A stretch of DNA of 64,000 bases from Zoroaster sp. YZ-2022. Lineage: Eukaryota > Echinodermata > Asteroidea > Forcipulatida > Zoroasteridae. The notes beneath the pieces were generated by a model. The model saw nothing but the letters and a program-made list of their open reading frames with translations. It did not search any database and was not told where the DNA came from. Where the stretch lies: assembly GCA_029582265.1 (NCBI GenBank), contig CM055820.1:14559695-14623694 (forward strand), read 5' to 3'. Positions within the stretch are counted from its first letter, which is position 1, and each line of letters begins with the position of its first letter. The translations under genes were made by a program, and so were the position numbers. Positions 4,401-64,000 of the stretch are shown here, one piece after another.

Positions 4401-7400
4401 CGTGGGGGGCACTGGAAATTTGTGGGGGCACATGCCGCACATGCCCCCCCCTCCCCCCTCCCCCCTAGGGTGTACCTTGTCAGCTTCTCTTGTGCTTTAT
4501 TTGATTTTTATTATTAATAATGTACTCACCTTAAAGCCTCGATATACCAATCCGCTATCAAACAGTTGTCTGAAGACCCACCAGATGGACTCCATGAACC
4601 ACGGATACAATGTCTTGTAGTCCTTCTTGAAGTCTATCCATCGTCCCAAACGTGTCACAATAAACTGTAAGAATGATTGAATAAATATAATAATAATATG
4701 GACTACATGCGCAGGTATCCATCAAACTGGTACCCATTATCATCATCATCATATCATTATATTTATTAACCCTAACCTTCCCAAATCCTCCAAAATCCTC
4801 TTTGCTCAAGTGAAGGATTTTGAAGGATTGAGGTTACATGCTACATGCTCATGTACATCTATGTTTGTTGTAGTGATTGCAAGGTCAGTGCTTGGGTCAG
4901 TGGACACTGTTTATTGCTCCATGCATGCAGAGAGGGTCCCTGGCTATGTACATGTATCACAGATTAGAAACACATGTGTGCATACATGTCATGTGCTTGC
5001 TTTACTACTGAAAGATTTTGGAGGATTCAGGTTATGTGTAAGCAAATGGGCCTAGGGAGTTAGGAAGGATTCATGCATTTATGTGTAAGCAAATGGGCCT
5101 AGGGAGTTAGGAAGGATTCAGGTTATGTGTAAGCAAATGGGCCTAGGGAGTTAGGGAGGATTCAGGTTATGTGTAAGCAAATGGGCCTAGGGAGTTAGGA
5201 AGGATTCAGGTTATGTGTAAGCAAATGGGCCTAGGGAGTTAGGAAGGATTCAGGTTATGTGTAAGCAAATGGGCCTAGGGAGTTAGGAAGGATTCAGGTT
5301 ATGTGTAAGCAAATGGGCCTAGGGAATTATGAAGGATTCAGGTTATGTGTAAGCAAATGGGCCTAGGGAGTTAGGGAGGATTCAGGTTATGTGTAAGCAA
5401 ATGGGCCTTGGGAGTTAGGAAGGATTCAGGTTATGTGTAAGCAAATGGGCCTAGGGAGTTAGGAAGGATTCAGGTTATGTGTAAGCAAATGGGCCTAGGG
5501 AGTTAGGGTTAATCATCATTATACCCCTGCTCATCAGGCTCATAAATCATTCCTGAAATTTCCGCTCCCTGGGGAGTATACAGCTCAATTGCTGCCATTT
5601 CGGCGCATATAGCAGAGCTGCCAACTCTTCCGGATTCTGCGGAAGACTGTGTATTTGACGGTAATTTACTTACTTAAAATATATGCAAGGAGGCCTCTCC
5701 TTTCGGCACCAAAAGGAGAGGCCTCCTTGCATATATTTTAAGTAAGTAAATTACCGTCAAATACGCAAAGTCTTCCGCAGAATCCGGAAGAGTTGGCAGC
5801 TCTGATATAGGGCTAATCAAACACAACAACCAACTCTGCCCTCACAGGTACCCATTTACCCCTGGGTGGAGAGAAGCAATTATGGTAAAGTATCTTAAGG
5901 ACACAAGCACCATGGTCACAGCCAGGTTTTAAACCCACATTCTGACGACTCAACCATCAAAACACAAATTAGGTACACCAAACTACTCGGCCATGGTTTT
6001 TCAAAATAAAATCAATAAACTGTATATTTTCATCATCACAGCTGCTCTCTTATTTTTTGTTTATCTGAAAATTCTGGTTTTTGTTTAACTTGTTTTTTTT
6101 TTTTAGTGTGGGATTAGAAATTATTACATTTTCTAATTAATAAATTAAATATTGCAGAGATTGTCAACAGTCAACACATGGCTTAGAACCTAGATTGTTT
6201 AAATATGGCCAAAAAACTTTTCATAAATGAAATGTTTAAACATTTTGAATTGGTGGTTCTTTCTGTTGTAACATTGTTCCTATTCAGTTGAGCCAATCTA
6301 TCCCTTATTATATTCCTCCGGATCCTTACCTCCCAGTCACTTGAGTATCTCATCACAATCTTACGACACTCATTGTTGTATGCCTCAATACCCATCTTAG
6401 CAACATCCTCTGGACCCTTGATTCCAAGCATCTTGTCAATTTCATACTCCTGTAAGATAACAGTTTTCAAGGTTTTAACATATATTCCAGGCATGGAATT
6501 TCATTCTTGTAGAAGCAAGGCCACTTTTCCCGAGTAAAGGGCACTTCCATTAGAATATCAGAATGTCTATGAGAACATGTCTAAGGGACACCAAGGACAA
6601 GACCAGGGCAATGGAGGCATTAGTGTCCTTAGCCTCCATGTATTTCCAGACCTGATGTTCCTTGGGGGATTCAACCATAATCAAGGGAAATGAAAGCTGC
6701 ATGGACAGCAATGTTGATGATATATGTTCTAGGTGACCAGCCCAACACACAACGCACATGTGTACCAAGTTGCTAAAAATAACGGTAAGTTCCAGAATTT
6801 GATTCAATTTATTCCAATGTTAAGAACCATGTTGTTGATTAAATCATTAACCCTAACCCTCTTTAACCCTAACCCTCTTTAACCCTAACCCTCTTTAACC
6901 CTAACAACCCCAAACCAATCAAACTCCAATGGCTAGTTGTGTTGGATTTTGATGGACTCTGTACTGTATAGCCCAGACTGGGATACTTTACATGGGGCCG
7001 GGTGTCCCAATTCCATCTAAGTCCAACAGTTGGGTGGTAGTGTAACACTTGATTTGGATGGGTTACTTTAGCTGGCCGTTGATAATGACGAAGAGACAAA
7101 CAATGATGAAGAGACAGGCTGAGACGATGTATCTTTGGGCTTATAACAGATTAGGTTTATTATAAATCTGTGGCTTTGACAAAGATAATTCTAGCTGTAC
7201 AGTAGAGAGATAGAGAGAGAAGTGTAGTAGGTAACAGCAGGAGACGAAGTGAGTTTTCTATTCTAAAGAATAACTATATAAACTGGATGGAACTGGTCAC
7301 TTACAATAGTGGGGTATTGTGTTTGGATTATAATAGGGGAGGTCTAAGTGATAATTAAATTGGTCTAGGGGATGTCAGGGAGGTCTAAGTGATAATTAAA

Positions 7401-10400
7401 TTGGTCTAGGGGATGTCAGTCTTGGCATGGAGGAAGGAAAAGAAAGGAGTTCGAACGAGCCAGTGATCAAACGTTCAGACTGCCTCGCCGAAGTCGTAAA
7501 AACAGCAGGGGCTACACTCTGTAAACACTGGTCTTAATCCAATTAGCGCGATTCCAAGTCGAGGGAGACCGTCGGCTGCAAGGACCCGGATGTGATCTTC
7601 AGTGTTTGCGCATGCGTAAAATGATTTTTGTGTTGCCTGTCGCGATGCGTGTGTCTCGCGATGTTCGATCAAGATGGCGGCGTACGGTAAAGACGATTTT
7701 GTGTATGGCTCGGATCTCAGCGATTTTAGTGACATTTCCGAGAATGATTTAGACCCAAATGAGTTATCAGATTGTAGCTTTAGTTCAGAAAACGACGATC
7801 GGCAATACTGTATTTGTGGAAAAGCTTCAACAATGGAGATGATTGCATGCGAAGGTGAAGAATGCGATCATCTGGTGGCATTACAATTGTGCTGGTTTTG
7901 CCATTAACACTATTCCTGGTCCATTAGACTCCTGGATTTGTGATCGTTGTCGCCCAGGAACAAGCACAGGTAAGCAAGAAGAATTTTATTGGTCTCACTA
8001 GTTTTTTTTTGTTTTTTTTCGGCCATTTTTTTTTTTCAGAAAACCTAATAATTGTATAAAATATGAAGATAAACTCGCCAAAGGCAAAGTAAAAATAAAA
8101 AAAAAAAAAAATTTGAAAGCTCACTTGTCATTCACATCTGCCATGTTGCAACAACAAAATTAGGATCTATGTTAGGCCCCCACCTTTGGACTTGGTAGTT
8201 GTCTGGGCATCTATGATCTAGGCTACCCAAATAAAATAATGGATAAATAAAATTGATGAGTATTTTTAACAAAAGATTGGTTATGAGTAAAACCTGATTT
8301 AAATAAAGCAATTTAATTTGTGTTTTACATTCTTAAATCAGGAAGCGTAAACACTGAAGAGTCGTTCCCATCAGCTTCTCTCCACACAACAGCAGAACCT
8401 GCTGCTGCAAGAACATCTACAGAGGAACCTGCTGCTGCAAGTACATGTACAGAGGAACCTGCTGCTGCAGCTCCAACTACAAAGAAAACTCCAAAAAGCA
8501 GGTCTAGGAAAGCCAAAAAAAAAGGTACAATGTACATGCATATTTGACGATTTTTCCATCAAATCTGGTTTTATTAAAACCTTTTGGTTGGTATTATATA
8601 ATGAATATTTTACAAGCATGCTTGGATATAGCTGCGATAATCGTAGCTCTTGGTCACGTCCCTTACACCGAAGAGGCACGACAGATCATATGTTCAAATT
8701 TTGCTGACGCTTTTTTCAACATTTTAAACATACCAATTGTTTTTATTTTCATTAATTTGTTTTTGAAAATTGTTTACCACATAGTCCATTTGAGCACTTG
8801 GATCTAAGGGACGTGATCAAGTGCTAAGATTAACACAGCTACATGTAGCTTGGATAACAAAACATATCCTTATAAACGGTCTGCAATTTTTGCAGAAAAT
8901 GATTTTTCAAACAGAAAAAACATTGTTTTGTATAAACATTCAAATAGACTTATGTTGTTCCCCAGTGTTTCATTTTAAGAAATACGAGGAGAGCTTTAAA
9001 TTGCCCTCCTTAAATTATTGAGGAGAGCTATTTACACTGCTCAGAACCACATTTACTTAACACATTAGAGTACAAAGTGGATTAAAAACATGATTTTATT
9101 GCTATTTTGGCTGCATGATGCAAGGAAATAAACGCCACATCAGTAGTTAATTTCCGTTTGTCAATGAAATTGTGTCTTTTCCCCTTCAGACCTTATCTTA
9201 TATATGTCTACAAGTGGTTTTTTTTTCGTCAGAATCCTAACTGAAATTTTAACCATCTGTGTTTTTTTTTCTTTTTTTCAACAGTTTCCAGAAGACCAGA
9301 AGCCATTTTTGATGGTGAACTTGCCAAGGAGCAAGCTTCGAAGTATTTCAAGACTAGTCTTCAACAGATGAAGACCCACCCTGTTTTTAGGGCAAGATAT
9401 CCTGCAGCTCTTTGCGTGATGGCATTGGTAATGCAGCTAATGGAACTTCTTGACAGCCAAGAATTTGAAGTCTTTTGTCAAGACACGGTTGCTGCTCTTT
9501 GGATCGTTGTAACTGCTGGTGATACTAAACATCTGAAGCCAGAGGGTTATGAAATAATGTGGCGTTCTTTTCATACTTATAGATTAAGTAGCATTGCTAA
9601 TTGGAAGAGATTCTTGCATTCAGTACATTTAGACGACAATGGTCAACATGTTTACCTTCTATATCAATATTTATTACAAGCGGTGTTGGATTTATTAATT
9701 AAAGACCGAAATAATACAGATAAACCAGAGCAGTCAGTAAAACAGCAACCCAAACCCATAACAATAGAAGAGCAAGTATTAAGATATGTAGCAGGTTATG
9801 TCCCCTTCTCATTACATAAGAAATTTTCCAAACAACTAATGAAACTGCCCGAACATTATTGTAAATTTTTAAAGACATGGAAAACTTGTACATCTGATAC
9901 TGCAAAAACATTTTTGGAATATACTAATGAGTGGATTGAGGCCCAAAACCGAGGTGGCCTATTTCATGTTTCTGATGGAGTCTACCTACTTTTCTGAAGC
10001 ATTGAATTTGTCACGAGAGAATATCTCACAACATCAAATATTGAGTCATTTCCAGGGCTTGATGTTCAGACAGAACTCTTTGACAAAATAGTTGCTGACC
10101 AGAAAGTACAACGTTACTGGTGTAGCTAACAGGGGAAAATTCTACAAAATTGCTAGGTATAATTGCAAAGCAGTGGATTAAAATCAGAACAAAAGCTTTC
10201 ATCAATGTTTACTTAAATTTAAGAAAGGCATCTGGTAGTGGTGTCTCAAAGAAAGCAGAGAAGGCTCTACGTAAGGATTTAAGTGTTTGATCAAAACACT
10301 GTAAACTTGAAGTTATAACTCATTCATAAGTCTTAACCAGTTAACATTGGAGGCCGGATTAAATATTTTTATGGATTTTTGCCTTATCCCTTTATCCAAG

Positions 10401-13400
10401 ATTGATTCGTTTGTACAACCAGTTGTTTTTATAAAAGGACGCTATTTGGTCCATTGTTACGAGGTCTTTTGTCCAGGCAAGTTAAGGCTGTGTTTTTTCG
10501 AGCCGGGCTGACTGTGACAGAACAACAATGCACGGTCCAGGTTTTGGTACAATATACTCGCACAACTCAAATTCTATCCATTGAAAAACTCAAAATGTCA
10601 GTGAGCAAACGTTTTTTTTCTCTTCGTCCTGAAACATTTTCTTTGACATGAAAAATTGTTAATGGCTATAATTTTTTTCTTCTGATTTTTCACTGAAAAT
10701 AATCCCGTACGGGGGACTGGAAAAACTTTTAAACCCGATGGCAACCGGTTAAGAGATTTTGAAAATTATATAACCCCCTGTATATTTGTTTTCAATTAAA
10801 AACACTTTGGCTTTATAACGTTTATTGTAAATATTCAACAAGTTGATTTTCTGTACATCGCACAAAACTAGTTAAAATGAAGCCTCCAGTAATGTATGTA
10901 CATGTACAGTACTAGAAGTAATGCAATATTTACATGTTGTATCAACTCTTGTTAACACACTCCATGTGTTACATTTTCTTCACAATACATGTACATGTTT
11001 TTATGTAAAGCAAACTGTTTTGATTATATGGGAAATAAAACAGAAAGCCAAAATTGTTTCCCAACAGTCATTATTTATTTATCCCTCGTAATAACAATTC
11101 GTTCGACTCTAAATAATATTGAGTTGGAACAAAACAAAATTTTAGAAAATTTAATGATTTCATTTCAAAATTTGTCTGCCAAAAATAAAAATGACAAATA
11201 ATTGCCCTCAAATTAATGTCTCATGGTTGATGGCTCACATTTGCTGGATGTCAATGGTGACCTTTTGTCCATGAGACCTACACAGTCTATTGGAGATGCA
11301 CATGTACATGTAAATGCAATTGTAATAAGTACAGCACAGCTTGAAAAACTATGCTTTTTTTTCAAAAGAACCCCAAAGCCTAAAGAAATTTAATGCCATC
11401 TTGGATAAAAAATTACTTTCTTCGAGGAAGAGGAGTGCTGTCAAGATGAATTTCCTGATCGGGTCTATCTGCCAGACGGCAGTTACCTCTCTTCGATGCC
11501 TTTACACTGCTTGAAGCAACATGTAATGCCAGCATGTTGTGCCCAAACTGCTCGACTGTAGGGTTGTCGTTGCATCCCCCTGCACCCCGTTGCTTGCTAA
11601 AGTACTCTTCTAACGGGTCCTTGTTGAATTTCTCGCTAAGAAGAAACTCAACTCTAGGCAGTTTGAGAAGAATCTTCGCGAGACTGACAAAGGAGTGCAC
11701 TGAAAATACAAAATAATTCATAGGAAATAAAAAGGAGAAAACTAATTCTGGACAACAACAAAAATGTAGGGCATTGCCGTTAAAGCTCAGTTTAACCTTC
11801 AATTTCCCTTCATTTTTCCTGTATCATACCTTTAAACAATGGAAGTTTATATAAAAGAAAATGACATTTGACAAAACTAAAGATGTCCGTTTCTCTTTCT
11901 CCCTGAGTTATTTTGCCAGTTGTCATGTGGGGTATTAATTCAAATGTATTGCAAATCTGAAACAAAAAATTGTTTATCAAATATTTATTAAAAAAATGAA
12001 GAAAAAAAAAAAAAAACCAAAACCCCCCCCCCAAAAAAAAACCAGTTGATTGTTCTGTTTATTTTCAAGAAGAAGAGAATGAGGGCCTTTAAAAAAAAAA
12101 ATTCTAGGATGGCCGCCAAGCATCTAAATTCAAAATGGCCATCAACATTTTATTTATACATGTACAAATGGTGCCAAGATGAAACAAAAATACATGAAAA
12201 ATCTAGACTTTTTGGGTGGGGGTAAAGGAGAAAAATGCAGCTTCAAAAAAGGATGCAGGCGGGGATGATCAACTGGTGTTTTTTTTACTTGGTCTAATGC
12301 CTCTGAGAATTGAGTACCTAAATATACACGTACCTGTGATTTTTAGTCCATTGATTGTCTCCCTGCTTAGACACATTTTCTTCTTGGTAGCCTTGTCTAA
12401 CTGATGAGACTCTACTTCGTCCTCCCAGCTTGTCAGAAATCCAAGAAAGTCTGTCAACAGCCACTGTGAAAAGTTTAATTGGAACCGGGTGACACTTAGT
12501 AAATACAGTTCAGGCACATAAGAAAAGGTTCTAAGTCAAATTAGTTAAAATAATACAGTTTAAAGAATGTATTTTATACAAAAACAAAAGAATTTTCAAA
12601 AGTACACTTTTCTTTTTGTTTATGAAAAGAGTGAAATCATAAATGCAGCTGCAGAGAAATTCATGTCGTCATAGGGGGAGACAATATTAGCAAGGAAACC
12701 AGTTTGGGAGTATGTGATTTTTTTGCATTATATAAGGCCTTTTGGCAAGCAGAAAAAGGTTTAACCGGAGCGTGCTTACAATGATTAACAGCCTGAACGA
12801 GTATCAGTGTGATAGCCGTCACTGGGGAGAGTGAGGAACAGTTATAAAGAGACAAGCTTCAGAAAACTTTGGAGGTGTCAGGTTGGTTTAAATTTGGGGG
12901 AAGGAGGGAAGAAAGAAAGAGGGATGGTAAGGGTTGGAAATGAGGGGAGTGGTGGGGAACGTGCTAGGTTGAGCGGGGGAGGGGGGGGGGGGGGGAGGAC
13001 AGTAATATGGTGCCTGTCCGCATGTCCATGGACTGGTTAAAGGATGTTCTCTTACCTCAAAACGCCAGTCATCGGAACTTCTGTATGGCTCCAGTGCAGG
13101 TTTCCTTAGCCGTGAAGCTTTGAAGGTGTTCGATACATTCAGGCAGTCAAAAAATTTATCGAAAAACTCTACAAATGTCTCGGTTGACTTGGTCTCTAGC
13201 TTCCCCTGTGATCTGAATGCATTGACCACTGTTGTACTCAAAACCTGAAGTTTTAATTAACAGAGAAATATTCAGAGTTGATGATATTGATGTAAAGAAT
13301 TAATTCTACTCAGGAGCCGTATATTGTTTTTGCCATTCTCCCTCTTGTCTGAGAGTACGGCAAGATCACCACAAATCAATGACATTTAGTTTCAAAAGTA

Positions 13401-16400
13401 TCAGATTTGTTCAATTTTATAAATAATAAATGCAGGGACGATAATCAATACATGTACTTTGAATTTATGGGGAATGATTTGCTTGGGATGAATGCAAACT
13501 AAACCTGCATGTTTACTTTTCACAACAATTTTGAATCATTAAAAACCATTGTTAACTGATTATCATATTACCTGTGCAGCCATGTAAACTCTCATCCTTA
13601 ATGGTGGAGTCAAGTGAAGATGTTCATGTGTCAGCTTGTGCAGGCGTCTTAAACCAAGAGACTGACGATCCTTGCCAACATCCTTCTCATACAGCTGCAA
13701 CAACTGGACCCAGGAAATGGCTTTCTTGTTGAACTGTTGGTTTAACAAAAACAATATAATTATAATATTTGTGTATTGCCTTTATAAGGATGAGTGGTTT
13801 TAAATACACATAATGGAATACAAAAATAGTAAAATTAATATTGAATATCGATTCACTGTCATTTTTCCAGTCATCACTTTGAAGGTTTGATTAGATGCTA
13901 TTAGTTAGACATCAAAACATTTTGACATTATCAAAAAGCGAAAAACATTACAACATGACTTACACAAAGGTTCTTGGTCTTGTTGTGATATCCAGAATTC
14001 TCCCAGTTGTTACGAGTGGTTTTCATCAGGTGGGGGACGTCACAAATGAAAAAAATCTGCCGCTCAGGATCACAAGGGTGGGGAGTGAAGTAGGTGGCCT
14101 CAGTGGTTGCCTCTGGAGAATGTAATCGGTAGAATTTGCGGTTTGGTGAAGCGCCATCTGAAACTAGTGCACGTACTTGGAAGCCAGCCAACTCCAAAAA
14201 AACAATGGCCTCCCACATACAAGGATACAACTGGTCACTGGAAACACCAGTACTTGGGTTATACCCAATTGGTGCATGCAGAGAACTGAAGATGCCTCGT
14301 ATCATGAGGACAAGCACATGACTCGCCACTACCGGCTCAGACTCCCCACGACATCTCCTCTCAAACTCTGCCACCTCATTGGCAATACTCCCGACATCGG
14401 TGAATCCGATCACTTTTCCAGACCTCACGGAAAATGCCAAACCTGCCTTAATCTTCATTTCATCGAAGAGTAATGAAACATTCTTCTCAAGGTCTGGGCA
14501 AGACAGAATCTTGTTATCTTGAACAACCCTGTCAAGCATTGCGGCATTAAAACCAGTGGTTGGATCGGCAAAGTGGGTATATGGGTGTAGTGTGCTTGGA
14601 TGTGGTAACTTCATGAACCCACTTTGCCGAAGTAAATTGTATGAACTGGACGACTTACTCTGGATAGCAATGCACCAGCGAATGATTGCTGGGTGCCAGC
14701 GCATCTGTTTTCCTTTTTTGATTGACTCTTTTTGCTGTTCCCACAACAAATACGATGCTGAGCCCTTCTCAAGGGTGTTAACCAGACCCTCCTCACACTT
14801 CTCAAGGGTTTCTTCCAAGTGCCCATTTTGCTCACTAGAAACACAAATTGCCTCCGTCATCATCAGCTCTGACACTTTATCCTGAAGGACAACCACTCTC
14901 AGATTCAAATTTCGTCTTTCCTTCTGCAGGAGGGAAACCTTTTCCTGAAGTTGTTTTGTTGAGAGGCGGATGTTTGGTATCGTCGATGGAATGGAAATGT
15001 CATAACTCCTCTTGGCACGTTCTTGTGTGGCCATGGACATCAAATCGCCACGATGGACCATACACACCTCGCATCTGACTTTTCCATCGGTCATGAGTTG
15101 GCAATGCTTGTGTCTTATGGTCTGACCAACAAGACTGTCATGTGTTGTTATCCGGATTGGAATCTGCCCCTCTGGTCCTTCCTTCTTTTCCACAAACAAC
15201 TTGAAGTCACTACATTTGTTGCCCTCGCAAACCATAAAAGTTGACAATCTTTGGAAAATGCTGACAACCAAATCGGAGGAAAGATTTTCAGCAACATCTA
15301 CGAAAACCTTATGGACTGTTGGATCAACTGCCACCCCGTCAACCACAATTTGCCAAGACAAATCACTGGAAATGGTCAGATAAATTATTGGCTTACCCAA
15401 TGGACCCATCTTCATCACATGCAGCTTATTGAAACCCTGCCAAGCGACAAGATCGTAGTCACTTGCAAGAGAAGCCCACTTTTTAAGTGACTGTGCAGCA
15501 AACTCATCAGCAGTGACCACTTTACATTTATGGCATTCCCTCTTGTCGAACAATGCCAAATCTATATTGCAGGATGCCTTCTTATTTTTCTGATGTTTTC
15601 CCCACCACTTCTTGAGCATCACTTCACAAGGCTTGCAGACAAAGGGCGGATGCATGTCGGCTTCATCATCAACCACATCAACAGATAGAGCAGCAAATAT
15701 CATTCTGGAAAGTGCTTCCTTCATGATAGGATGACGACCTTGCACAATGGTCCGTTCTTTCCCACACAGCCGACAGATGGCCTGAAGACAATCTGAATGC
15801 TGCATCTTTGCAGAAATCAGGAATTCTGTGAAATAAACATAATAAAATACACATGTTGTTAGCTTACACAACAATAATTGAGACCCCCAAAACACTTTGA
15901 GTGGAGTATTTCGTCAAAGATGGCAGTATATTTATTTCTCTTTTGAATTTTTTTTTAATACATGCATTACAGGAAAAGACCCTTTCACGGTAATATGCAC
16001 CATGTATGCACCATCTTGTTTAAGGGGCAGATTTGTTTATTTCCACTCGGCAATAGAACCTCACTCAGCATACGGCTACAGGGTTGTGTTAAATTCCAGC
16101 GGCGAATCGCAGATGGCAATGCGTATACCAATTAAACAAATCTACCCCTTGAACAAGATGGCGAATATTACCGAGAAAGGGTCTACCCTTCGTGACATTA
16201 CTATTCTGGAATTGTTTGTATTAATATGAAAATAGTTGTTTTTATAATCTGTTTTAATTAATTTATCTACATTTTTTGAGGCAAATTAATACTAGTAGGC
16301 CTATGTGGTAGAGTAACCATCAGTCATAGTAAAGTAAAATGATTGCTGAAATTTTATATTATAAAATAAAACTTCAATTTCCTTCATGTTATGATATTAG

Positions 16401-19400
16401 CATGGAGGAAGGAATAAGTGCGAAAATAAATTTTAAAAAGGGCTAGTTTTGTTGTCTGTATTGTCATTGTCAAGCTTGAGGCCTAAAATGTATAATTAAA
16501 AAAAAATCTTAACCTAATTTTACCATGGTTTAATTTTCTTTCTTTCTTTTTTTCAAATGAGAACCAATCTTTACTGAAAATGTGAAAGAAAACCTTTTAT
16601 TTGTGTTAAGTATGTGAACATACAGCCCTTGGTGCGTGGCGCACATGAAAAAAAATGGGCTGTTATTTTGTTGTTGGTTGAAAAAAAAAAATCGAAATTT
16701 ATTTTGCGATTTAAAATAAAGGACCAATGCGGACCATATATCAGCACCCACGAATGAACAAAGAATACTGTTGGCAATCCAAAACCACTCGAACTGTTTT
16801 CCGGGTGTCACCGGAACGGGCTAAAAACAGGTAAAATATTATTTCATATTTTCACAAAACACTAGGTTGTTGCTGAGATAAAAGGACTGTTATCTTACCT
16901 TCAAATCGTTGAAATCTGACGATCAAAAAACGAAAATAACCGGAAAATCAAAACAAATCGGTTGAAATACACGGCGCGTAGAGAAAAGCCATGGAAATGC
17001 AACTGCGCATGCGTTATCTGTTTGTTGGGTGCTCTCTTACGATGCGTTGTCAAACAATTCATTACTCCAGTGAAGTAGCAGGGCGGCGAGATGCATTGTA
17101 CACAAAGACACTTGGTGAGATCTTATCGCGCTCGTAAAACAGTCGCGCAACGGGAGGTCTTCGTTCCTTTTGCACAGGGCCATCTAAGTCGCTAATTGGT
17201 TCGTAAATACCCAGTGGGGATTAGGCGGGTCGTTCGAACTCCTTTCTTTTCCTTCCTCCATGGTCTTGGAGACAGGGAAATTATTTTTATGACCCCACTG
17301 ACCCCACATGTGGTCAGTGGCCTTCAGTGTAAAGTCAACCAGATGTCAGCTTACAGTAGTGTTACTGCATGGTGTTGTATTTTGATGGACTCAGTACTGT
17401 ATAGCCCAGACAGGGATACTTTGTATGGGGTCAGGTGTCCCAATTCCAGCTAAGTCCAACAGTTGGGTGGTAGTGTTACTGCATGGTGTAGGATTTTGAT
17501 GGACTCAGTACTGTATAGCCCAGACAGGGATACTTTGTATGGGGTCGGGTGTCCCAATTCCATCTAAGTCCAACAGTTGGGTGGTAGTGTTACTGCATGG
17601 TGTTGTATTTTGATGGACTCAGTACTGTATAGCCCAGACAGGGATACTTTGTATGGGGTCAGGTGTCCCAATTCCATCTAAGTCCAACAGTTGGGTGGTA
17701 GTGTTACTGCATGGTGTTGGATTTTGGTGGATTCAGGAAGGTTCTTAGCCAAAACCATTATTAGAGGGTTAGGATTACTAACTGGCTAGACACCCTGCTT
17801 AATGAAAACAATATCCATTAATTGTCCAAGTTTGAAGCTTGCTGAGTGCAAAAAGATCCATCAGCAAGAACAATAGATCTTTTGCTTTCTGCTTACTTCA
17901 ACAAGATCCAACAGAAAATTTACATTTGTTGTATTGTGTTGCATTGAGCATGGTTACAGTTAATTAACTTATTGTTTTACATCTAGTGGGGTCAATTTCA
18001 CAAAAAACAAATCTTGAATGTTAGTTGCTAAGTGCAAATGTGATCTCCATGGAATTTGTATTGTTATGTGAACGTTTGCTTGGCAATAAAGACCAATAAA
18101 TCAAGAACAGTAAAATGCCATAAGATTAGCCTACATAAGATGCATCTTTGTTTTGTGTGAGGCCCCGTTATTTAGCGCAGATGACAGGTGTAAATAACTG
18201 AAAATCTTACCACCGGTAGCCCGTGACAATCCCAACCAAATCTCCTATCCACATGAAAGCCACTCTGATGTGCATATCTGGTCACTATGTCCTTGATAGT
18301 TCCAGCCAGAATGTGACCATAATGAGGCAGACCAGTAGCAAATGGTGGACCATCGTAGAAGGCATAACTACATTGTAGATAGCACAAACAAGTAACATTT
18401 TACTTAACCAAAACAGGTCAACGGTCAATTACAACGGTCAATTACAACGGTCAATTAAATAGAACTTCTGAGCAGAAAATTTGTATTATATTGCTTTGGC
18501 TGCATGTTTGTTTTTTTATTCTGCTGATCAAATATACATAGTACACCAAAGCCTTATTACTGTCCATTAACCCTAACCCCCTGGGTAATCTGGCTAGGCA
18601 CCTTCCTGAATCCTCCAAAATCCATCAGTGCACTTTTGGAAACATGCCCTTATCTTCAAAATGCACCATGCATTTTCGTTGATATTTCATATTCAGCACT
18701 TATGGCCTGTACTTCTTGCCAGGTAGTAATTTTGTCCCATTTGAAGAGGTGAAAGTACCAGTTTCCAACAGTGCTGAATTTTCCCCAAAAAGTGCCGCTT
18801 GGAGGATTTTGGAGGATTTTGAAGGATTTGGGGTGGTTAGGGATAATGATGGAAGCTGTAGAAGTACTAGTTCTCATCAACAACTATCTAAGATTTCTAT
18901 TCCAAATATTGTTATTGGTGACTCTCATGCAATCTTCTTCTCAAGCAAGGAACCTTGGAGTTATTTTTGATGCAAACATGACACTTAAACCTCATATTTC
19001 AAATGTTACTCGCACCGCAGCATTTCACCTTAGGAACATTGGAAAGTTGCGCAAATATCTTAATTATGATGCAACAGAACAAATTGTTCATTCCTTCATA
19101 ACATCTCGTCTTGATATGGCAAATTCACTGCTTTATGGACTTCCCAAGGATCAACTACGAGGACTTCAAAAGATTCAAAACACTGCTGCACGTATTGTGA
19201 CTCTAAAAAAAAATCATGTCATATCACCCCCATCCTGAAAGATCTGCATTGGTTGCCAATATCATATCGTATTATTTATAAAATATTGCTTATTGTCTTC
19301 AAATCTTTGAATAATTGTGCACTATTATATATATCTGACTTGTTGAAATATTATGCCCCATCTCGCAAGTTACGTTCCAGTGCAAAATTTTTGCTGGCTG

Positions 19401-23550: not shown

Positions 23551-25949
23551 TTAACCCTAACCTTCCCAAATCCTCCAAAATCCTCTTTGCTAAAGTGAAG
23601 GATTTTGAAGGATTGAGGTTACATGCTACATAACTCTTTGCTAAAGTGAAGGATTTTGGAGGATTGAGGTTATTAGGCATACTTGCCTTTCCATGATACA
23701 TGTACATCCATATTTGTTGTAGTGATTGCAAGGTCAGTGCTTGGGTCAGTAGACACTGTTTATTTCTCCATGCATGCAGGGAGGGTCCCTGGCCATGTAC
23801 ATGTACATGTATCACAGATTAGAAACACATGTGTGCATACATGTCATGTGCTTGATTTACTACTGAAGGATTTTGGATTCAGGTTATATGTATGTGTAAG
23901 CAAATGGGCCTAGGGAGTTAGGAAGGATTCAGGTTATGTGTAAGCAAATGGGCCTAGGGAGTTAGGAAGGATTCAGGTTATGTGTAAGCAAATGGGCCTA
24001 GGGAGTTAGGGAGGATTCAGGTTATGTGTAAGCAAATGGGCCTAGGGAGTTAGGAAGGATTCAGGTTATGTGTAAGCAAATGGGCCTAGGGAGTTAGGAA
24101 GGATTCAGGTTATGTGTAAGCAAATGGGCCTAGGGAGTTAGGAAGGATTCAGGTTATGTGTAAGCAAATGGGCCTAGGGAGTTAGGGAGGATTCAGGTTA
24201 TGTGTAAGCAAGTGGGCCTAGGGAGTTAGGAAGGATTCAGGTTATGTGTAAGCAAATGGGCCTAGGGAGTTAGGAAGGATTCAGGTTATGTGTAAGCAAG
24301 TGGGCCTAGGGAGTTAGGAAGGATTCAGGTTATGTGTAAGCAAATGGGCCTAGGGAGTTAGGAAGGATTCAGGTTATGTGTAAGCAAGTGGGCCTAGGGA
24401 GTTAGGAAGGATTCAGGTTATGTGTAAGCAAATGGGCCTAGGGAGTTAGGAAGGATTCAGGTTATGTGTAAGCAAGTGGGCCTAGGGAGTTAGGAAGGAT
24501 TCAGGTTATGTGTAAGCAAATGGGCCTAGGGAGTTAGGAAGGATTCAGGTTATGTGTAAGCAAATGGGCCTAGGGAGTTAGGAAGGATTCAGGTTATGTG
24601 TAAGCAAGTGGGCCTAGGGAGTTAGGAAGGATTCAGGTTGTGCAAGTAAATGGGCCTAGGGAGTTAGGAAGGATTCAGGTTATGTGTAAGCAAGTGGGCC
24701 TAGGGAGTTAGGAAGGATTCAGGTTATGTGTAAGCAAGTGGGCCTAGGGAGTTAGGAAGGATTCAGGTTATGTGTAAGCAAGTGGGCCTAGGGAGTTAGG
24801 AAGGATTCAGGTTATGTGTAAGCAAATGGGCCTAGGGAGTTAGGAAGGATTCAGGTTATGTGTAAGCAAATGGGCCTAGGGAGTTAGGAAGGATTCAGGT
24901 TATGTGTAAGCAAATGGGCCTAGGGAGTTAGGAAGGATTCAGGTTATGTGTAAGCAAATGGGCCTAGGGAGTTAGGAAGGATTCAGGTTATGTGTAAGCA
25001 AATGGGCCTAGGGAATTAGGAAGGATTCAGGTTATGTGTAAGCAAATGGGCCTAGGGAGTTAGGAAGGATTCAGGTTATGTGTAAGCAAATGGGCCTAGG
25101 GAGTTAGGAAGGATTCAGGTTATGTGTAAGCAAATGGGCCTAGGGAGTTAGGAAGGATTCAGGTTATGTGTAAGCAAATGGGCCTAGGGAGTTAGGAAGG
25201 ATTCAGGTTATGTGTAAGCAAATGGGCCTAGGGAGTTAGGAAGGATTCAGGTTATGTGTAAGCAAATGGGCCTAGGGAGTTAGGAAGGATTCAGGTTATG
25301 TGTAAGCAAATGGGCCTAGGGAGTTAGGAAGGATTCAGGTTATGTGTAAGCAAATGGGCCTAGGGAGTTAGGAAGGATTCAGGTTATGTGTAAGCAAATG
25401 GGCCTAGGGAGTTAGGAAGGATTCAGGTTATGTGTAAGCAAATGGGCCTAGGGAGTTAGGAAGGATTCAGGTTATGTGTAAGCAAATGGGCCTAGGGAGT
25501 TAGGAAGGATTCAGGTTATGTGTAAGCAAATGGGCCTAGGGAGTTAGGAAGGATTCAGGTTATGTGTAAGCAAATGGGCCTAGGGAGTTAGGAAGGATTC
25601 AGGTTATGTGTAAGCAAGTGGGCCTAGGGAGTTAGGAAGGATTCAGGTTATGTGTAAGCAAATGGGCCTAGGGAGTTAGGAAGGATTCAGGTTATGTGTA
25701 AGCAAATGGGCCTAGGGAGTTAGGAAGGATTCAGGTTGTGTGTAAGCAAATGGGCTTAGGGAGTTAGGGAGGATTCAGGTTATGTGTAAGCAAGTGGGCC
25801 TAGGGAGTTAGGAAGGATTCAGGTTATGTGTAAGCAAATGGGCCTAGGGAGTTAGGAAGGATTCAGGTTATGTGTAAGCAAATGGGCCTAGGGAGTTAGG
25901 AAGGATTCAGGTTATGTGTAAGCAAATGGGCCTAGGGAGTTAGGGTTAA
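23551..25949. mobile_element. TTAA-flanked MITE B, expanded by a 44-bp array
   Basis: Same left end as element A (TTAACCCTAACCTTCCC) and same right end (GGGAGTTAGGGTTAA). It is 2.4 kb, of which 2.05 kb is the array. Confidence 0.75.
23885..25945. repeat. 44-bp minisatellite, about 47 copies
   Basis: The same unit as at 5024-5508. Units differ mainly at one A/G site (AAATGGG or AAGTGGG). Between about 24205 and 24520 the two forms alternate, giving an 88-bp higher-order period; elsewhere AAATGGG dominates. One unit near 24640 is shorter (TTGTGCAAGTAAATGGG). Confidence 0.97.
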
Positions 25950-37179: not shown

Positions 37180-37700
37180 ATAATTGATAATATTAATAAG
37201 ACAGTGAATCACTGAATGAGTGATAGGCCTACTGATAGTGATATAATAAATGAGAACAAGTGGCGGTCGGATACGGCATTCTACCCCATTGATTAATGGC
37301 CAGACACTTAAGTACTCAGTGGTAAAACCAGCTTTAACAATGTTTGCGAGTAAATTACTTAAATAAATCATTAAATTTTAAGACTTACCACCGTTTTCTT
37401 AATACTTAATAATAGCACCTCCGCACGTGTGCATATGCGCCGTGGCAATTTACAATGGTAAATAACTTAACTCAATGCTTAATTCTAAGCTAGTACGGAA
37501 CCCTGACTGAATGTATTCAGTTCATTTTCAGTAATTTGGGCGCTGTTGAATTAATTGAGAACGCAAGAGGGCGCTTTATCTAACCAGGGTGAATCACTGA
37601 TGGTGATCAGTCAGGTGAATCGGTAAGTATTCGGGTGTCCATCAATATCGCCTCACCCACCCATTGTTCTTTACACAAATTGCAGTAACAAATAAATAAC
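37180..37700. other. No gene seen
   Basis: Right-hand remainder of the repeat hosting the 5.6-kb element, then unremarkable AT-rich DNA up to the LINE. Confidence 0.45.
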
Positions 37701-40134
37701 ATTTTAAATCCTTGTCAATCTGGTTTCAGAAGTAAACATTCTACAAATACTACACTTTTAGATGTTTCTGATCATATTCTTAAGAACATGAATGATGATA
37801 AAGCTACAGCTGCTATTTTTCTTGACCTGAAAAAGGCATTTGACACTGTTAACCACCATCTGCTTATTGAGAAGCTTAAACATATAGGTATTAAAGACAA
37901 CACATTGAACTGGTTTATTTCTTATCTCTCAAATAGATCTCAAGTTGTTAGTATTAATTCCTCACTCTCTGATTTAAAATGTATTGACATAGGGGTTCCC
38001 CAGGGTTCTATTCTTGGACCATTATTGTTTATAATCTTTGTTAATTCACTTGCTGACTGCATTTGTATCTTGCAAGTGCGTAATGTATGCTGATGACACA
38101 ACTCTTTTGTGCAGTTCAAAAGATTCTCTTACCTTAGGGGCCGTTCACAATTATCAACATTTTCACGAGCGTACAAACCGTACGCTGGGGGGGAGGGGGT
38201 TAAGGCGCCGCGTACGCTTTTTCAAAAAGTAAAAATGTCGATTTGTAAAAACGGCGCGAAATACACGGCCAACGCCCAGAAAGATCGTAGGCCTCGATCT
38301 TAACCGCGGCCACCGCGGCCAATGCCGTGATGCCCTGTCGAGATTGCCGCAATGTTCCTTCAAAAAACGCTCTCGTAACGGCCAACTTGGCCAGCATGCC
38401 CTTTTTGAGAAACATACAGTAGTAGATAGGCCTACCTCTATTTGCGTATTCATGTCAGATGAAAACGTAAATACATGTACACGTAAATAACAGGAGATTT
38501 CTTGTGCGGATCCATTGTTTAATTTTGTGTTTTGCAGTCACGCAATCACACACAAAATCCCATCAAGCCACGACCATGACATGCATGACGACCGGCCAAC
38601 GTACATGTACATACGTGTGCTAAGTTTTAGACTCAAGTTTTGAAATGCCTACATTTATTGATTCTGTTGTGTGTCTCTGTTTTGCTGCAGACTCTTTAAA
38701 TTTGACTTTGCCTTCATAAGTTCATAGTGCACGCTTCTGAGACTTGGTTTTCTTCAGCTACCAAATCTCAGGAGTTTGCACAATGGACATGATGGAGGCA
38801 AAGTCAAATTACAGCTAAATTCTGTGTGCTGAACCATGCAAGTATTATAATACTTCTTTATCATGTTTATAATACTTCCATGGTTGAACTGACCTCGGTT
38901 TAAAATATTTGCTGCAGACTGACTGTATATTATACTTTGCCTGAATACATTACTTTTGAACACAAATCTATTGTTTGAAATCAACATTTTATTTTGTACA
39001 CTTAAAGGGGGGGGGAGGGGGGTCTGAAAAAGTGTACCGGTACTCTTTGTACACTTGTGAAAATGTTCATAATTGTGAACGGCCCCTTACAATCTGAGCT
39101 TAATGCAAACTTAAATAGCATTTCGAAGTGGTTTAATGTAAACAAACTAACTCTTAACATTAATAAAACAAAGCTCATGATATTTGGAACTAAACACACA
39201 TTACAAAACTTCAAGAATATTTCCCTTACATATGATACAGATATAATTGAAAGAGTGGACAATTTTAAATACTTGGGTGTTGTTTTTGACCCACAACTAA
39301 TATGGAGTAATCATATTGATCAATTAACTTCTAATGTATCCAAACGTATTGGTATAATTCGAAGAATCAAATATTATCTTCCTTCGTCTACTCTGAATTT
39401 GCTTGGCAATGCTCTTGTTATGCCTCTTTTTGATTATTGTAGTTCTGTTTGGTCTAATTGTAAAGCTCAATATTCTAATTCTCTTCAAATTCTTCATAAT
39501 ACTAATAGGCTTGCCAGAATATTGCTCTCTGCTGACAGTCGTACTTCGGTTAACGATCTAATGACTAAACTTAGCTGGAATAAATTAGAACAAAGATGGA
39601 ATGACCAACTTCTTATCACAACATTTAAATGTTTACAAGGCAACGCACCTTCATATTTATCGTCAAATTTCTTATTCAGTGATTCTGCACATTCCAAGGG
39701 TACACGGAGTCAAACATTTAAATGTTTACTTCTTCCACCATGGAAAACTAATCCAGGTAGACGGTCATTCCACTTTAGAGCTGTAAATCGCTGGAATAAG
39801 TTGTCAAATGACATTTGGCTCAACTTTAGTACCATGACTACACATATTTTTAAAAATGACATCAGTACTCATTAATGCTGACATATTATGATTTCATGTA
39901 TATTGATATATAGGCCTAATGTACATTTATATGTTTACACTTTTAAACTTAATACTATGTTATGACTGTGTATATTATGTACACATACTGTAAATATATC
40001 TTGTATATACTTTTGTACATTTTAAATACATGTAGTGTAGAATACAATAATGTTTTAATCTGGACCTCTTGGGAGACCAGTACTTTGTATTGAAAGAGAT
40101 ATCCAGAATAAAGATAGAATAAACAAACAAACAT
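37701..40134 (+). mobile_element. 5'-truncated LINE, split by a Harbinger-type MITE
   Basis: Reverse transcriptase from QSGFRSKHST (motif 1-2), FLDLKKAFDTVNH (motif A), GVPQGSILGPLLF (motif B) and YADDT (motif C), which lies across a one-base frame shift near 38085. It resumes after the insert at 39090 with LTLNINKTKLMIFG, FKYLGVVFD and RRSFHFRAVNRWNKL to a stop at 39873. A 3' untranslated region of about 260 bp ends in an AAACA-type tail. The endonuclease domain is missing. Confidence 0.88.
38137..39086. mobile_element. Harbinger-type MITE inside the LINE (950 bp)
   Basis: Ends GGGGCCGTTCACAATTATCA and its reverse complement GTGAACGGCCCC, with about 30 bp of inverted similarity. A TTA duplication (38134-38136 and 39087-39089) fits PIF/Harbinger. 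No transposase inside. Confidence 0.82.
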
Positions 40135-52900: not shown

Positions 52901-55345
52901 AAATCATAATAAAACTACAGTAATACCAAATGAGTACAATACAGGAATACTGCAATTTTACTGCAGTATTAATACAGTTATATGACATTAAAAACTGTAG
53001 TTAGATCATAATAAAACTACAGTAATACCAAATGAGTAATACAGGAATACTACAATTTTACTGTAGTATTAATACAGTTATATGACATTAAAAACTGTAG
53101 TTAGATCATAATAAAACTACAGTAATACTAAATGAGTATAATACAGGAATAGTACAATTTTACTGCAATAATATTATAATTGAATTACATTGAAAATGTA
53201 GTAACAATGCAGTATTATTAAAGGGAAAGTAACATAGGATTACTGTAATTTTACTACAGTTTTAGTGTAGTTTTACTACATTAAATTATCATAGTAAAAC
53301 TACAGTAAAAAATATACTCCACTTTTAGTGTAAATTTACTATAGTTTCTTGCTTCTACAGTTACTGTAATAAAACTGTAGTAACACAAACTTCATGTTTA
53401 ATTCAATTATTATAGTAAAACTTTAAATACCACAGTAAAACTACAGTTTTATTACAGTAAAACTGCAGTGGATTTTTATAAGGGCCTGCCCCTCTACAAC
53501 CCTGTGCACGTCCCTGCGTGTGCCGGATTGCAATGTATTGTGTAGACTATACAATGTCCTTCTCTTGCACCAAGACGATGACAACCTACGTCCATGGAGG
53601 AAGGAAAATAGCCTTATTCCATGCTACGTCTGACAGCTCAATATTATTATATAATAATGAAAACAGGAAGGAGTGAGGCAGCCCCTCAAATCCTACTCCA
53701 AGTACATGCACATTTGACTCGAATTTACAAGAGAATAACACAAGGCTGCTGCCGGCAGCAGAGAGGTGGAAACATCAGCAAAATGTTGGTGCTTGTAAAA
53801 TTACTAGTCAATGTCACACTAGTTCTAAAATAGTTCTAAAATACTTCGTGACAATACGTATCTCCTTATGGGCGACAAAATAAATAAGATACGTTGGAGA
53901 CAATTCTTTAACTTGGAACAATTAATCATAATAAAACCTCAAAGCGTGACGTCAGATCTTAGGCTGTCATAGAGTTATATAACATACAAATGGCCCTTTT
54001 CGAAACCACGGCTTCGCCTTCGTCTCCGGCTTAGGCTAGCTACGCGCCCTCGGTTGTTTTGTACGGAAGCGTATTTAGGACATGGCAGAAAAAAAATTCC
54101 CGGATTACTATTTCGCCCGGGCGAATTACTAATCCACCCGGGCGAATTACTATTTCGCCCGGGCGAAATAGTAATTCACCCGGGCGGATTAGTAATTCGC
54201 CCGGGCGAAATAGTAATCCGGGAATTTTTTTCTGCCACGTCCTAAATACGCTTCCGTAGTTTTGACTAATGCGTGCTTTGCATTCAGGACTTCAGACAGG
54301 AGGACGGAGCCTGAAACCGGAGCCCAAGCCGAAGCCGTGGATTCGAAACGGCCGTGCGCCAACTCGAGTCAAGTCTGTTGTGCATAGCGCCCGCTAGCGG
54401 CGGATCCAGTGATCGTTAATTCCGTCTTTATTTTTACAATCGACTCGAGTCTAGTCCTAGCCTAGCACTACTGTAGCTGAAGTAATGTTATTGCATTGTA
54501 AATGTATTAACAGTAACAATCTCTTTCATTAGATCAGAGATCCTCATGTTGAGCCTTCAGTGACGTTACTCACTTATCTGCGAACAAAATGTATCCTTTT
54601 TTAGATTCTTCTTGACTGTTTTTGTATTTGTATTTTTGTTCTTTATTTAATTTCTTTAACTTATAAATATAATTATCATCATAAACTTTTTAAAAGCTTT
54701 ATTTACAGATGGTAACAACGTCACCCTCAGATGACTTTCAATTGGTAATCATTCAAATGGGCCATCATTAAAAATACAATTGAATGCTCTCTCACTTTCC
54801 AGCACCGTTCTCTTTCTGTTTGTGTTCTGTTGGTTTCATGTGATGATTATTATTAAAGTGACGGTATCGTCACGATCAGAGCTAGCCCCATTCTAGGGCC
54901 AATACACTGGACTCCTTCCGTATCCTTAGCCCTAGCCCTACACTTTTGGAAGTCTTTTATTTTGACGTAGAGTGATTATTGAGTAATTGTAAAAATGCTA
55001 TGATTATCCTTGACACACCACAGGAACACAGTGCCACAGCGCCACTAAAAGGAAACAAAATTTAGGAGTCTAAGAAAACGAAGGGCAGATGGGGGAGATG
55101 GATGACGGCCATGAATTGGCAAATAAAAAGGTAGAAAAGTCAATATGGATACAGAGTTGGGCATAATGTTTAAAGTAAAACCATCTTATTTCAAACTTTT
55201 TTGCAGCAAGTGAGTTTTAAAATAATGTCCTTAATTCTGGGGTAACAGTACGTCTAACAGGAAGCAAACTAGGATGTGGAGAGGGTGGATGTGGTGCCTG
55301 CACCGTCATGGTGTCGAAATATTCCCCTCTTGACAAAACTATCAG
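40920..55345 (+). CDS. Xanthine dehydrogenase/aldehyde oxidase, N-terminal part (3 exons)
   Basis: Molybdo-flavoenzyme of purine breakdown or aldehyde oxidation; the visible part is the start of the first 2Fe-2S (ferredoxin-like) domain. Exons are 40920-40982, 54533-54590 and 55249-55345, all GT-AG and phase-consistent. Exon 1 gives LVFFCNGKK, exon 2 gives [19 protein letters not shown], and exon 3 gives [20 protein letters not shown], then [13 protein letters not shown]. The C-GEGG-C-GA-C spacing ligates the first cluster. The likely paralogue call is XDH, but aldehyde oxidase cannot be excluded from this much. Intron 1 is 13.6 kb and packed with nested elements. The next exon (NACLAP-type block) was not found before base 64000. 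Confidence 0.88.
41560..42915. mobile_element. Fold-back element with GCGACGG-rich ends
   Basis: Arms 41570-41910 and 42460-42910 are inverted copies: ATCTGCCATTCTAAACGTCG at the left and the reverse at the right. The right arm carries an expanded array of ACGTTTAGAAGGGCGACGG-type units; the left arm keeps about two. The arms include GTAGGCCTATAAATGGGTAA and its reverse. The flanks share TGGAATT, a possible duplication. Confidence 0.75.
42940..43090 (-). repeat. Repeat with Penelope/DIRS-like ribozyme-type sequence, inverted copy
   Basis: The minus strand reads CTTTGAGAAAAAACCTGCTA then GGTTCGAAACG and later GGTAAGCAGTT; it matches 51118-51235 on the plus strand. The GAGAAA-stem-CGAAACG layout resembles a degenerate hammerhead core. 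Confidence 0.45.
43230..43375 (+). mobile_element. Penelope-type end with altered hammerhead (copy 4)
   Basis: Core 43252-43291: CTGAAGA, a stem whose loop has gained GGCCTA, then GAAACATC in place of GAAACGTC. The change removes the GUC cleavage triplet and the stem III pairing. Confidence 0.6.
43390..46250. other. No gene recognised; XDH intron 1
   Basis: AT-rich intron with a C run near 45305 beside a TGGCTACGTC block that recalls the GGCGTAGCCA MITE family. The frames here are short and without motifs. Confidence 0.45.
46300..47400. repeat. 160-bp tandem array, about 5-6 copies
   Basis: Marker GTTGAAACTGTAGTTTAATT at 46644, 46804, 46963, 47122 and 47281, so the period is about 159-160 bp. 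The sequence is almost entirely AT plus ACTGTAG motifs. Confidence 0.92.
47400..48600. other. Centre of the 7.2-kb element, no gene seen
   Basis: AT-rich; no frame, motif or repeat that I can name. Confidence 0.45.
48640..49310. repeat. Inverted repeat of about 180-bp arms
   Basis: The left arm (48640-48820) and right arm (49090-49280) are inverted copies of the repeat at 26700-26860: GATTTTTGGGGGTACAGAAA on the left, TTTCTGTACCCCCAAAAAAC on the right. Confidence 0.7.
49310..50100. other. No gene recognised
   Basis: Several short overlapping frames on both strands with GC-richer sequence near 49700-49900. No family motif was identified. Confidence 0.4.
51118..51235 (+). repeat. Repeat with ribozyme-like GAGAAA...CGAAACG text
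   Basis: TTTGAGAAAGAACCTGCTGT then AGGTTCGAAACG, later GGTAAGCAGTTTGC. Inverted relative of 42940-43090. Confidence 0.45.
51765..52140 (+). pseudogene. DIRS-like reverse transcriptase relic
   Basis: Reads [10 protein letters not shown] (motif A), [10 protein letters not shown], then in another frame [11 protein letters not shown] (motif C). Frame shifts lie between them. The order and wording fit tyrosine-recombinase retrotransposons of the DIRS type. It is bracketed by a diverged direct duplication (51400-51560 and 52195-52370). Confidence 0.65.
53593..53608 (+). repeat. Solitary P-type terminal sequence
   Basis: CATGGAGGAAGGAAAA matches the first 16 bases of the P transposon terminus. No inverted partner was found in the window. 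Confidence 0.6.
53991..54354. mobile_element. MITE with GGCC...TTCGAA ends, holding a palindrome
   Basis: The left end GGCCCTTTTCGAAACCACGG and right end (reversed) GGCCGTTTCGAATCCACGG are inverted over about 45 bp. Confidence 0.7.
54062..54258. mobile_element. 197-bp near-perfect palindrome with five CCCGGG blocks
   Basis: Ends TACGGAAGCGTATTTAGGAC and the reverse complement. The inner part is ATTACTATTTCGCCCGGGCG-type units repeated with CCCGGG five times, the third sitting on the dyad. GTTTTG stands on both sides (54056-54061 and 54259-54264). Superfamily unknown. Confidence 0.88.
54533..54590 (+). CDS. XDH/AOX exon 2
   Basis: 58 bp between TTCATTAG and AAAT|GTATCC. It encodes [19 protein letters not shown] plus one base, the DPxxTLLxYLR motif. 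Confidence 0.9.
55249..55345 (+). CDS. XDH/AOX exon 3 (2Fe-2S cysteines)
   Basis: 97 bp between GGTAACAG and CAG|GTAAAC. Three of the four cluster-1 cysteines are visible in [13 protein letters not shown]. Confidence 0.95.
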
Positions 55346-56043: not shown

Positions 56044-56206
56044 TGCTCCAGGGTCATCTTCATGTCAATCTTCAGACCATTTATATATTTCATATTCATT
56101 CTAACATTGATTGATTTTGTCTTCGGAGGTGTTCAGTTGGAAATTGTTTTACTAATTTTACTCCAATTATAGCACCTCACACAAAAGGGCAACTGAGCAA
56201 CCAACC

Positions 56207-62792: not shown

Positions 62793-63617
62793 AGGGAAGA
62801 TGAACTAAATCGACGTGATCTTCGGCGCCAGCGCGTTTTCCGTGACCGGTTTAACCAACTAGATTCTTACAATAACCAAGAACTCATAAAACGGTATAGA
62901 ATGCCTCGGCATGTTATTTTACAACTAATCGACTTGATCAACGATGACGTGGCACATCCCACTCAGAGATCGCGGGCCATACCGGCATCCCTGCAGATTC
63001 TATGTGCTTTGAGATATTTTGCCACGGGAAATTTTCAGCTTGTGTGTGGAGACTTGAGTGGAATCAGCCAACCCTCAGTTTCAAGAATTGTAATACGAGT
63101 GGCAACCGCACTCCAAAGGAAATCTCCGCAAATAATTTCTTTCCAAGAGATAGAGAGAGTCAGGAGATGATAAAGGAATGATTTTACCAAAATCGTCATA
63201 GGATCCCAAATGTGTTGGGGTGTGTGGATGGAAGCTTAGTGCCAATCAAAATGCCGGCTCGAGATGAGGATGCATACGTTTGTCGAAAGCAGTTTCATGC
63301 AATAAATGTTCAAGGAATATGTTCCCACGAATTGAAATTCACGAACGTTGTAGCGCAATGGCCAGGTTCTACGCACGATGCATTTATATGGGAAAACTGT
63401 CATCACAACCATGAATTCCAGAACAGCCCAGTCGTTGAAGACTTGTACCTTCTTGGCGATAGCGCCTATCCGTTGCGCCCTTGGCTTTTAACGCCTGTAC
63501 CCAACCCAGAAGATGAAGCGGAAGTGCATTTCAACTCGCATCATCGTAGGACTCGACAGAAGATAAAGGCTACCTTTGGGCGGTGGAAAATGAGGTGGCT
63601 CTGTCTCCACAGGTTTG
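62793..63617 (+). pseudogene. PIF/Harbinger (HARBI1-like) transposase, broken
   Basis: The first frame gives RVFRDRFNQLD, RYRMPRHVILQLID and the HTH-like ATGNFQLVCGDLSGISQPSV. The frame breaks with TGA near 63168, then resumes as RIPNVLGCVDGSLVPI, WPGSTHDAFIW, LGDSAYPLRPWL and RTRQKIKATFGRWKMRW, ending at a TTTG|GTAAGA donor. The DDE glutamate expected before TFG (IVERTFG in relatives) is Lys here. No ATG opens the conserved N-terminus: a TAA stands just before it, with a possible acceptor GCGTCAG. Confidence 0.85.
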
Positions 63618-63619
63618 GT

Positions 63620-64000
63620 AAGATGTGTCCTTTTAGCCTTTTTTAGTTTATAAGTTGATTTACAAAACCTCCGACATTGAAAATGGCAAAAACAGAAAAA
63701 CAATAACATTCAGATTTTGAAAGATGTAAAGTTTCAAAACATCACAAGCTGGATCTGAATTGAGATCAACAACTTCAATCTGGGCGGCTTAGGGGGCATC
63801 GTTATTTTGCCTACCCACCCCTTCCAAAAGCTTGCTTTCTTGCCTGCAAAGGTTTTTAGAGAGTATAAGGCTTAAAAGTGGAAGGTAATTAGTTAGCAAA
63901 AAAGATTCAAAACGTTTCTTAAAAATGCGAATTCTCTAATTGGGCCACAATTTAAGTTGTTTGCGAGTATGACTTTCTGAACAATATTTCAATTTTCTTT
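63620..64000. other. No gene seen
   Basis: AT-rich sequence after the Harbinger donor site; the expected final transposase exon is not recognisable here. Confidence 0.45.

Follow-up and report, generated by a model that had tools for sequence, protein, structure and literature searches.

Where the RAG1 N-terminal region came from is not settled in the history of adaptive immunity; Kapitonov and Koonin inferred that an ancient fusion had taken place within the Transib group (2015, PMC4411706). A transposon in a 64,000-nucleotide stretch of the genome of the starfish Zoroaster sp. YZ-2022 (contig CM055820.1, positions 14,559,695 to 14,623,694; hereafter the window) bears on this question, as its P-type transposase appears to carry such a region and lies tail to tail with a second gene that encodes a PHD finger. 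Does a P-superfamily element carry the accessory parts of RAG, and what would they do there? An earlier sequence-only reading had described the locus as a P-superfamily transposon with the layout and both accessory modules of a RAG locus. By its genes and ends, the element belongs to a P-superfamily lineage of cut-and-paste transposons with two genes, which has open transposase frames, stop-free partner genes, matched ends and short target duplications.

The transposase gene of the window copy has five exons and encodes 869 amino acids in a frame that is open to its stop. As the sequence-only reading had held, its core is of the P-element type. This follows from both Pfam and predicted fold, with a P-type RNase H domain and a GTP-binding insertion domain. 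A predicted-structure search using model residues 421-873 placed the fold much closer to the P element than to RAG1/Transib. We identified an acidic triad, D448 (codon 14464), D550 (14158) and E805 (11610), in the motifs FDEMK, SDGAS and DPLEEYF; these residues would correspond to D230, D303 and E531 of the P element, an equivalence drawn from domain order and not residue by residue. No THAP match was found by Pfam in the window transposase at E-values up to 10, and THAP was not among the matches listed for 25 relatives (25 of 41 families). There was no RING finger after the N-terminal module among the Pfam matches of the window transposase, but the RING-type ZDD is reported missing from echinoderm RAG1L too (PMC7204232). 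As judged from sequence, a RAG1 N-terminus zinc module heads a P-type DDE transposase at the place where THAP would be. Members of the transposase lineage were recovered under the names of Acanthaster, Patiria, Asterias, Anneissia, Amphiura, Holothuria, Apostichopus, Hydractinia and Clytia.

The identity of this zinc module was assessed with family profiles; in this region the window protein alone matched zf-AD only, and below the Pfam cut-off. The latter match favours an alternative in which the module would be a generic zinc domain of the ZAD type, its likeness to RAG1 being convergent. When 10 relatives were scanned at the curated Pfam cut-off, the RAG1 model PF12560 was passed by four (best 3.2e-9) and zf-AD by one (best 5.5e-7), while at E-values up to 1 the two models matched 13 and 14 of 25 relatives, respectively. 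We found that a profile of 22 modules, compared with all Protein Data Bank (PDB) chains, placed the RAG1 N-terminal domain 21wb at the top (7.2e-10), followed by full-length RAG1 chains (5.1e-5) and then by LD30467p (9.3e-4), the best non-RAG1 chain, which we take to be a ZAD structure. With a profile of the 12 closest modules, from which the four PF12560 scorers were left out, 21wb was still first (6.2e-5) and LD30467p fell to 0.07; full-length RAG1 chains were absent from the PDB matches of this smaller profile. Moreover, hhalign aligned the module profile with mouse RAG1 at a probability of 96.6, and a single-sequence search with RAG1 reached the relatives P0044 (5.6e-6) and P0024 (3.1e-5). 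A third motif of the form aromatic..PH..C..C, like the WHPH..CDIC of RAG1, is kept in 10 of 34 proteins, the window protein not being among them. Taken together, the family profiles support, with the caveat that the window sequence alone does not, that the first ~95 residues of the transposase form a RAG1 N-terminal-type zinc module, with a weaker kinship to ZAD domains remaining. The claim of a RAG1-like cysteine module thus stood at the level of the family and not of the single sequence, and the proposal of a separate P-superfamily lineage bearing it was supported. An unrelated zinc family devoid of RAG1 signal was not what the profiles returned, and we regard a generic ZAD origin as quite improbable.

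We further studied the partner gene. The sequence-only reading had called its PHD finger complete; in the window copy, however, the frame is shifted within the finger, and exon 3 contains an in-frame stop as well as a second frame break. Copies that are stop-free over the matched stretches occur elsewhere in the genome. Sixteen relatives of the partner were found, five of which bear the name Acanthaster or Patiria, and in Acanthaster the records LOC110988468 and LOC110988470 are a transposase relative and a partner relative, respectively. By their database records, these two genes lie on contigs of equal length, and the same holds for P0001 and P0029. The finger of relative P0030 passed the Pfam PHD cut-off, which was missed by P0028 and by the incomplete finger of P0031. 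Against the PDB, the P0030 finger matched ING4 best (5.8e-15) and then other ING proteins, and RAG2 was not among its 34 matches. The Cys/His spacing in P0028, counted by eye, is unlike both RAG2 patterns given in PMC7204232. In ING2, Y215 is required for H3K4me2/3 (di- or trimethylated lysine 4 of histone H3) binding (PMC3395697), and 11 of the 12 fingers read have Y or F at the matching position. Downstream of the finger, the P0028 model is all-helical, with modest confidence (mean predicted local distance difference test score, pLDDT, 59). The M and W at what we take to be the other positions of the H3K4me cage are also kept in the fingers read. Pfam gave no kelch match and no other match above cut-off to the main domain in the eight partner proteins scanned, PDB searches returned no relatives of this domain, and a fold search with it gave no standout match. 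From sequence and model, the second gene, which is convergent to the transposase, encodes an ING-like PHD finger followed by a conserved, predicted-helical domain. By the same evidence it is not RAG2, as its finger is ING-like and N-terminal and the remainder is predicted to be helical with no kelch match. For this reason, the PHD half of the resemblance to RAG would be convergence in layout at most, so that of the two accessory modules proposed to match RAG, the zinc module stood and the PHD module did not.

To survey other copies, the left 275 base pairs (bp) of the element were searched against its own assembly (1.0 Gb, 616 contigs), which gave 27 matches; 19 regions of 10 kb plus the window made up a sample of 20 copies or fragments. 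Both genes were present in seven of these (the window, L013, L014, L015, L017, L018 and L023); the transposase frames were stop-free in the window and L014, and the PHD gene was damaged in all seven. Four copies (L019, L020, L025 and L026) had neither gene. None of the 20 carried a transposase without the PHD gene, in a sample biased towards this outcome by the left end adjoining the PHD gene. Transposase exon 1 gave at least 81 genomic matches from several families, and from these a less biased sample of nine loci was drawn, consisting of the five best-scoring ones not yet fetched and four with a stop-free exon 1, all picked before the partner was searched for. Seven of the nine had a convergent PHD gene, and these are all seven loci where the last transposase exon was found. 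Both main PHD exons were stop-free at L035, L036, L037/L039 and L038; at L043 exon 3 was stop-free and exon 1 was not found within the 6 kb read; the gene was frame-broken in L040 and mostly deleted in L042. Transposase exon 1 was open at all seven paired loci, but L038 has a stop farther along its transposase. In L036 and L038, end motifs of the CATGGAGGA type were seen upstream of the PHD gene. At L034 and L041, where no PHD gene was found, the sequence read did not show the last transposase exon either, and both may be incomplete elements. Nei-Gojobori comparisons between subfamilies gave a nonsynonymous divergence (dN) of 0.34-0.35 for PHD exon 3, with a ratio to synonymous divergence (dN/dS) of ~0.11, and dN/dS of 0.09 and 0.19 for parts of the transposase, with synonymous change saturated; near-identical copy pairs, which have few differences, ranged from 0 to 1.8. 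These results support the PHD gene as a regular convergent partner of the transposase in this lineage. The sequence-only reading had asked for intact copies and whether the pairing always holds, and no copy or locus read had the last transposase exon without the PHD gene.

The remaining nine of the 20 copies (L009, L010, L011, L012, L016, L021, L022, L024 and L027) kept PHD sequence with a transposase reduced to about half or less. Certain deletion derivatives of the P element make a repressor, and by comparison the PHD protein may be a regulator, acting as a transposition repressor or in transcription control, and not an insertion guide. In L009 and L022, half or more of the transposase is lost while both main PHD exons are stop-free. 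However, these copies were found through the left end, beside the PHD gene, so that the sample favours PHD retention, and the PHD gene itself is broken or incomplete in seven of the nine. We consider the regulator rather unlikely as the main function, though it is the chief rival of a guiding role. The L011 region (C7:21712932-21716358, minus strand) contains a more distant relic of a PHD partner, and the surrounding 26 kb read gave no transposase match belonging to it.

The window copy is 9,837 bp long (7426..17262). Its inverted ends (7426-7461 and 17227-17262) agree at 97% over 36 bases, with one mismatch, and the outer 33 are perfect; together with the GTCTTGG on both sides and the two convergent spliced genes, these termini were as the sequence-only reading had given them. 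The first 20 bases of the end had no further match in the window at fewer than three mismatches, for which shuffling predicts 0.01 matches. The outer end sequence CATGGAGGAAGGA recurs at 16401-16413 and at 53593-53605, and a motif similar to the former is present in several other copies, ~860 bp from the right end. Of the 20 copies, 15 allowed a comparison of their two ends; 12 of these had an exact 7-bp duplication and none an 8-bp one. The exceptions were L009 with one mismatch, L018 with the target site of L015 plus one inserted base, and the short L020, whose pair is unmatched. The 12 duplicated 7-mers are biased to GTNNNAC (G1 in 11, T2 in 10, A6 in 9 and C7 in 7). Identical left flanks were observed between L015 and L018 (C4, ~43 kb apart) and between L012 and L016 (C7 and C16); these pairs look like duplicated genome segments and not separate insertions. 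In duplication length, most copies resemble Galileo, a P-superfamily element of flies with mainly 7-bp duplications of consensus GTANTAC (PMC4168063), whereas P and Pdre2 duplicate 8 bp (PMC10983969).

Based on the above results, the best reading, to which we give a probability of about 0.6, is that a P-type transposase binds DNA with help of its zinc module and that the PHD partner guides insertion to active chromatin. The transposase would cut and join as the P element does. The module may stand in for THAP, helping the transposase to hold DNA and to enter the nucleus: RAG1 residues 87-217 bind zinc, have a role in nuclear import and bind double-stranded DNA in a zinc-dependent manner without sequence preference (PMC3124419). 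The helical domain would dock the partner on the transposase, and its finger would read H3K4 methylation and steer insertion to active chromatin, as the PHD finger of RAG2 brings RAG there; insertion would then yield the 7-bp duplication with its GTNNNAC bias. Several points weigh against this account. The mouse RAG1 N-terminal domain had no match to the window module in a single-sequence search up to E 100, and the fold search, confined to model residues 421-873, hardly covered the module. Binding of the partner to the transposase is a guess, as neither sequence nor fold searches gave a match to the main domain. Moreover, the residue ahead of the first PHD cysteine is not aromatic in L038, and the PHD-only derivatives suit a regulator equally well.

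We then compared the element with known systems. It shares with the P superfamily (P element, Galileo and THAP9) the P-type DDE core with three acidic residues in conserved motifs; unlike them, it has a RAG1-type zinc module with no THAP found, and a second gene that encodes a PHD finger. The RAG1 and RAG2 genes point towards each other, RAG1 with its N-terminal region and RAG2 as a kelch propeller with a C-terminal PHD finger (PMC7204232). The present element is like RAG1-RAG2, ProtoRAG and TransibSU in having a convergent gene pair, a RAG1 N-terminal zinc module on the transposase and a PHD finger on the partner. In contrast, its core is P-type and not Transib, its duplication is 7 bp and not the 5 bp of Transib/RAG (PMC8355894), and its partner has an N-terminal, ING-like finger and no kelch match. 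By sequence comparison, it has a RAG-like layout and one RAG1-related module, yet is not a RAG locus. The Chapa domain of Chapaev/TransibSU is a truncated N-terminal part of RAG1 and was said in 2015 to occur in no transposable elements beyond the Transib/Chapaev group (Kapitonov and Koonin 2015, PMC4411706); the present module differs in sitting on a P-type transposase and would be tied to Chapa through RAG1 only. Citing accounts (PMC8355894, PMC2996935, PMC13337447) present the Aplysia element N-RAG-TP (Panchin and Moroz 2008) as a transposon coding for a RAG1 N-terminal-like protein and mention neither a P-type transposase nor a PHD partner. We found no Aplysia-named protein among the lineage relatives matched. 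Our guess is that N-RAG-TP is likely a fragment of a P-type element like the present one.

Could the RAG1 module have been taken from the P-type lineage, or the reverse, with a domain passing between transposon superfamilies that share their host animals? The module is common to RAG1 and the P-type lineage; members of the lineage bear the names of the genera listed above (Acanthaster to Clytia), and RAG-like transposons are reported from starfish, sea urchins and molluscs (PMC4411706, PMC7204232). However, both modules may descend from an older shared one, and we place exchange somewhat short of even odds. A derivation of the RAG1 N-terminus from N-RAG-TP has been proposed before (PMC8355894, PMC13337447), and the new point would be a donor of the P superfamily. 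More tentatively still, the RAG1 N-terminal module may be a mobile zinc module of a long-lived P lineage, from which RAG1 acquired its front or with which it shares it, while an independently evolved PHD partner guides insertion to H3K4-methylated chromatin, the same design being reached twice. A regular PHD partner, if truly a guide, would give DNA transposons an independent second instance of chromatin reading. As the lineage has multiple families and several stop-free gene pairs in an available genome, the exchange question can be tested by trees and the function by assays.

Table 1. Positions of the parts of the transposon within the window
Feature	Position	Strand	Basis
Target-site duplication, left copy, GTCTTGG	7419..7425	.	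exact flank match
Left terminal inverted repeat; outer 33 bp perfect, a single mismatch over 36 bp	7426..7458	+	end comparison
Partner exon 1, with PHD finger; frame break inside finger in window copy	7674..7969	+	gene model, relatives
ING-like PHD finger, frame-shifted in window copy	7809..7950	+	read from sequence; finger of relative P0030 vs ING4, 5.8e-15
Partner exon 2, low-complexity linker	8342..8524	+	splice signals, frame
Partner exon 3, ~330-residue conserved domain, predicted helical	9285..10290	+	relatives, predicted model
Transposase exon 5, RNase H C-terminal part	11413..11699	-	Pfam PF21789 4.6e-8
Transposase exon 4	12334..12463	-	open frame, gene model
Transposase exon 3	13056..13244	-	open frame, gene model
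Transposase exon 2	13572..13733	-	open frame, gene model
Transposase exon 1: RAG1-like module, RNase H N-terminal part, start of GTP-binding insertion domain	13964..15805	-	Pfam PF21787 5.1e-23, PF21788 2.2e-11
Zinc module of RAG1 N-terminal type (residues 11-94), with three Cys pairs and the motif ECHKC	15524..15775	-	family profiles
Internal 13-bp repeat of terminal sequence, ~860 bp from right end	16401..16413	+	sequence match
Right terminal inverted repeat	17230..17262	-	end comparison
Target-site duplication, right copy, GTCTTGG	17263..17269	.	exact flank match

Other mobile sequences were noted by eye in the window, all on the plus strand. Open frames at 56156-58585 look like a long interspersed nuclear element (LINE) retrotransposon with an endonuclease, upstream of which lies a PHD-like finger of its own (CGRCSRPV...WFCPDC); reverse-transcriptase-like frames at 37689-39875 look like a second LINE fragment, and an open frame at 63182-63646 like a Harbinger-type transposase. 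Two tandem arrays at 5022-5507 and 23891-25944 share a 44-base unit, in ~11 and ~47 copies, respectively. A further array of 21/42-base periodicity at 54104-54219 consists of CCCGGGCGAA-type units that, by eye, are largely self-complementary.

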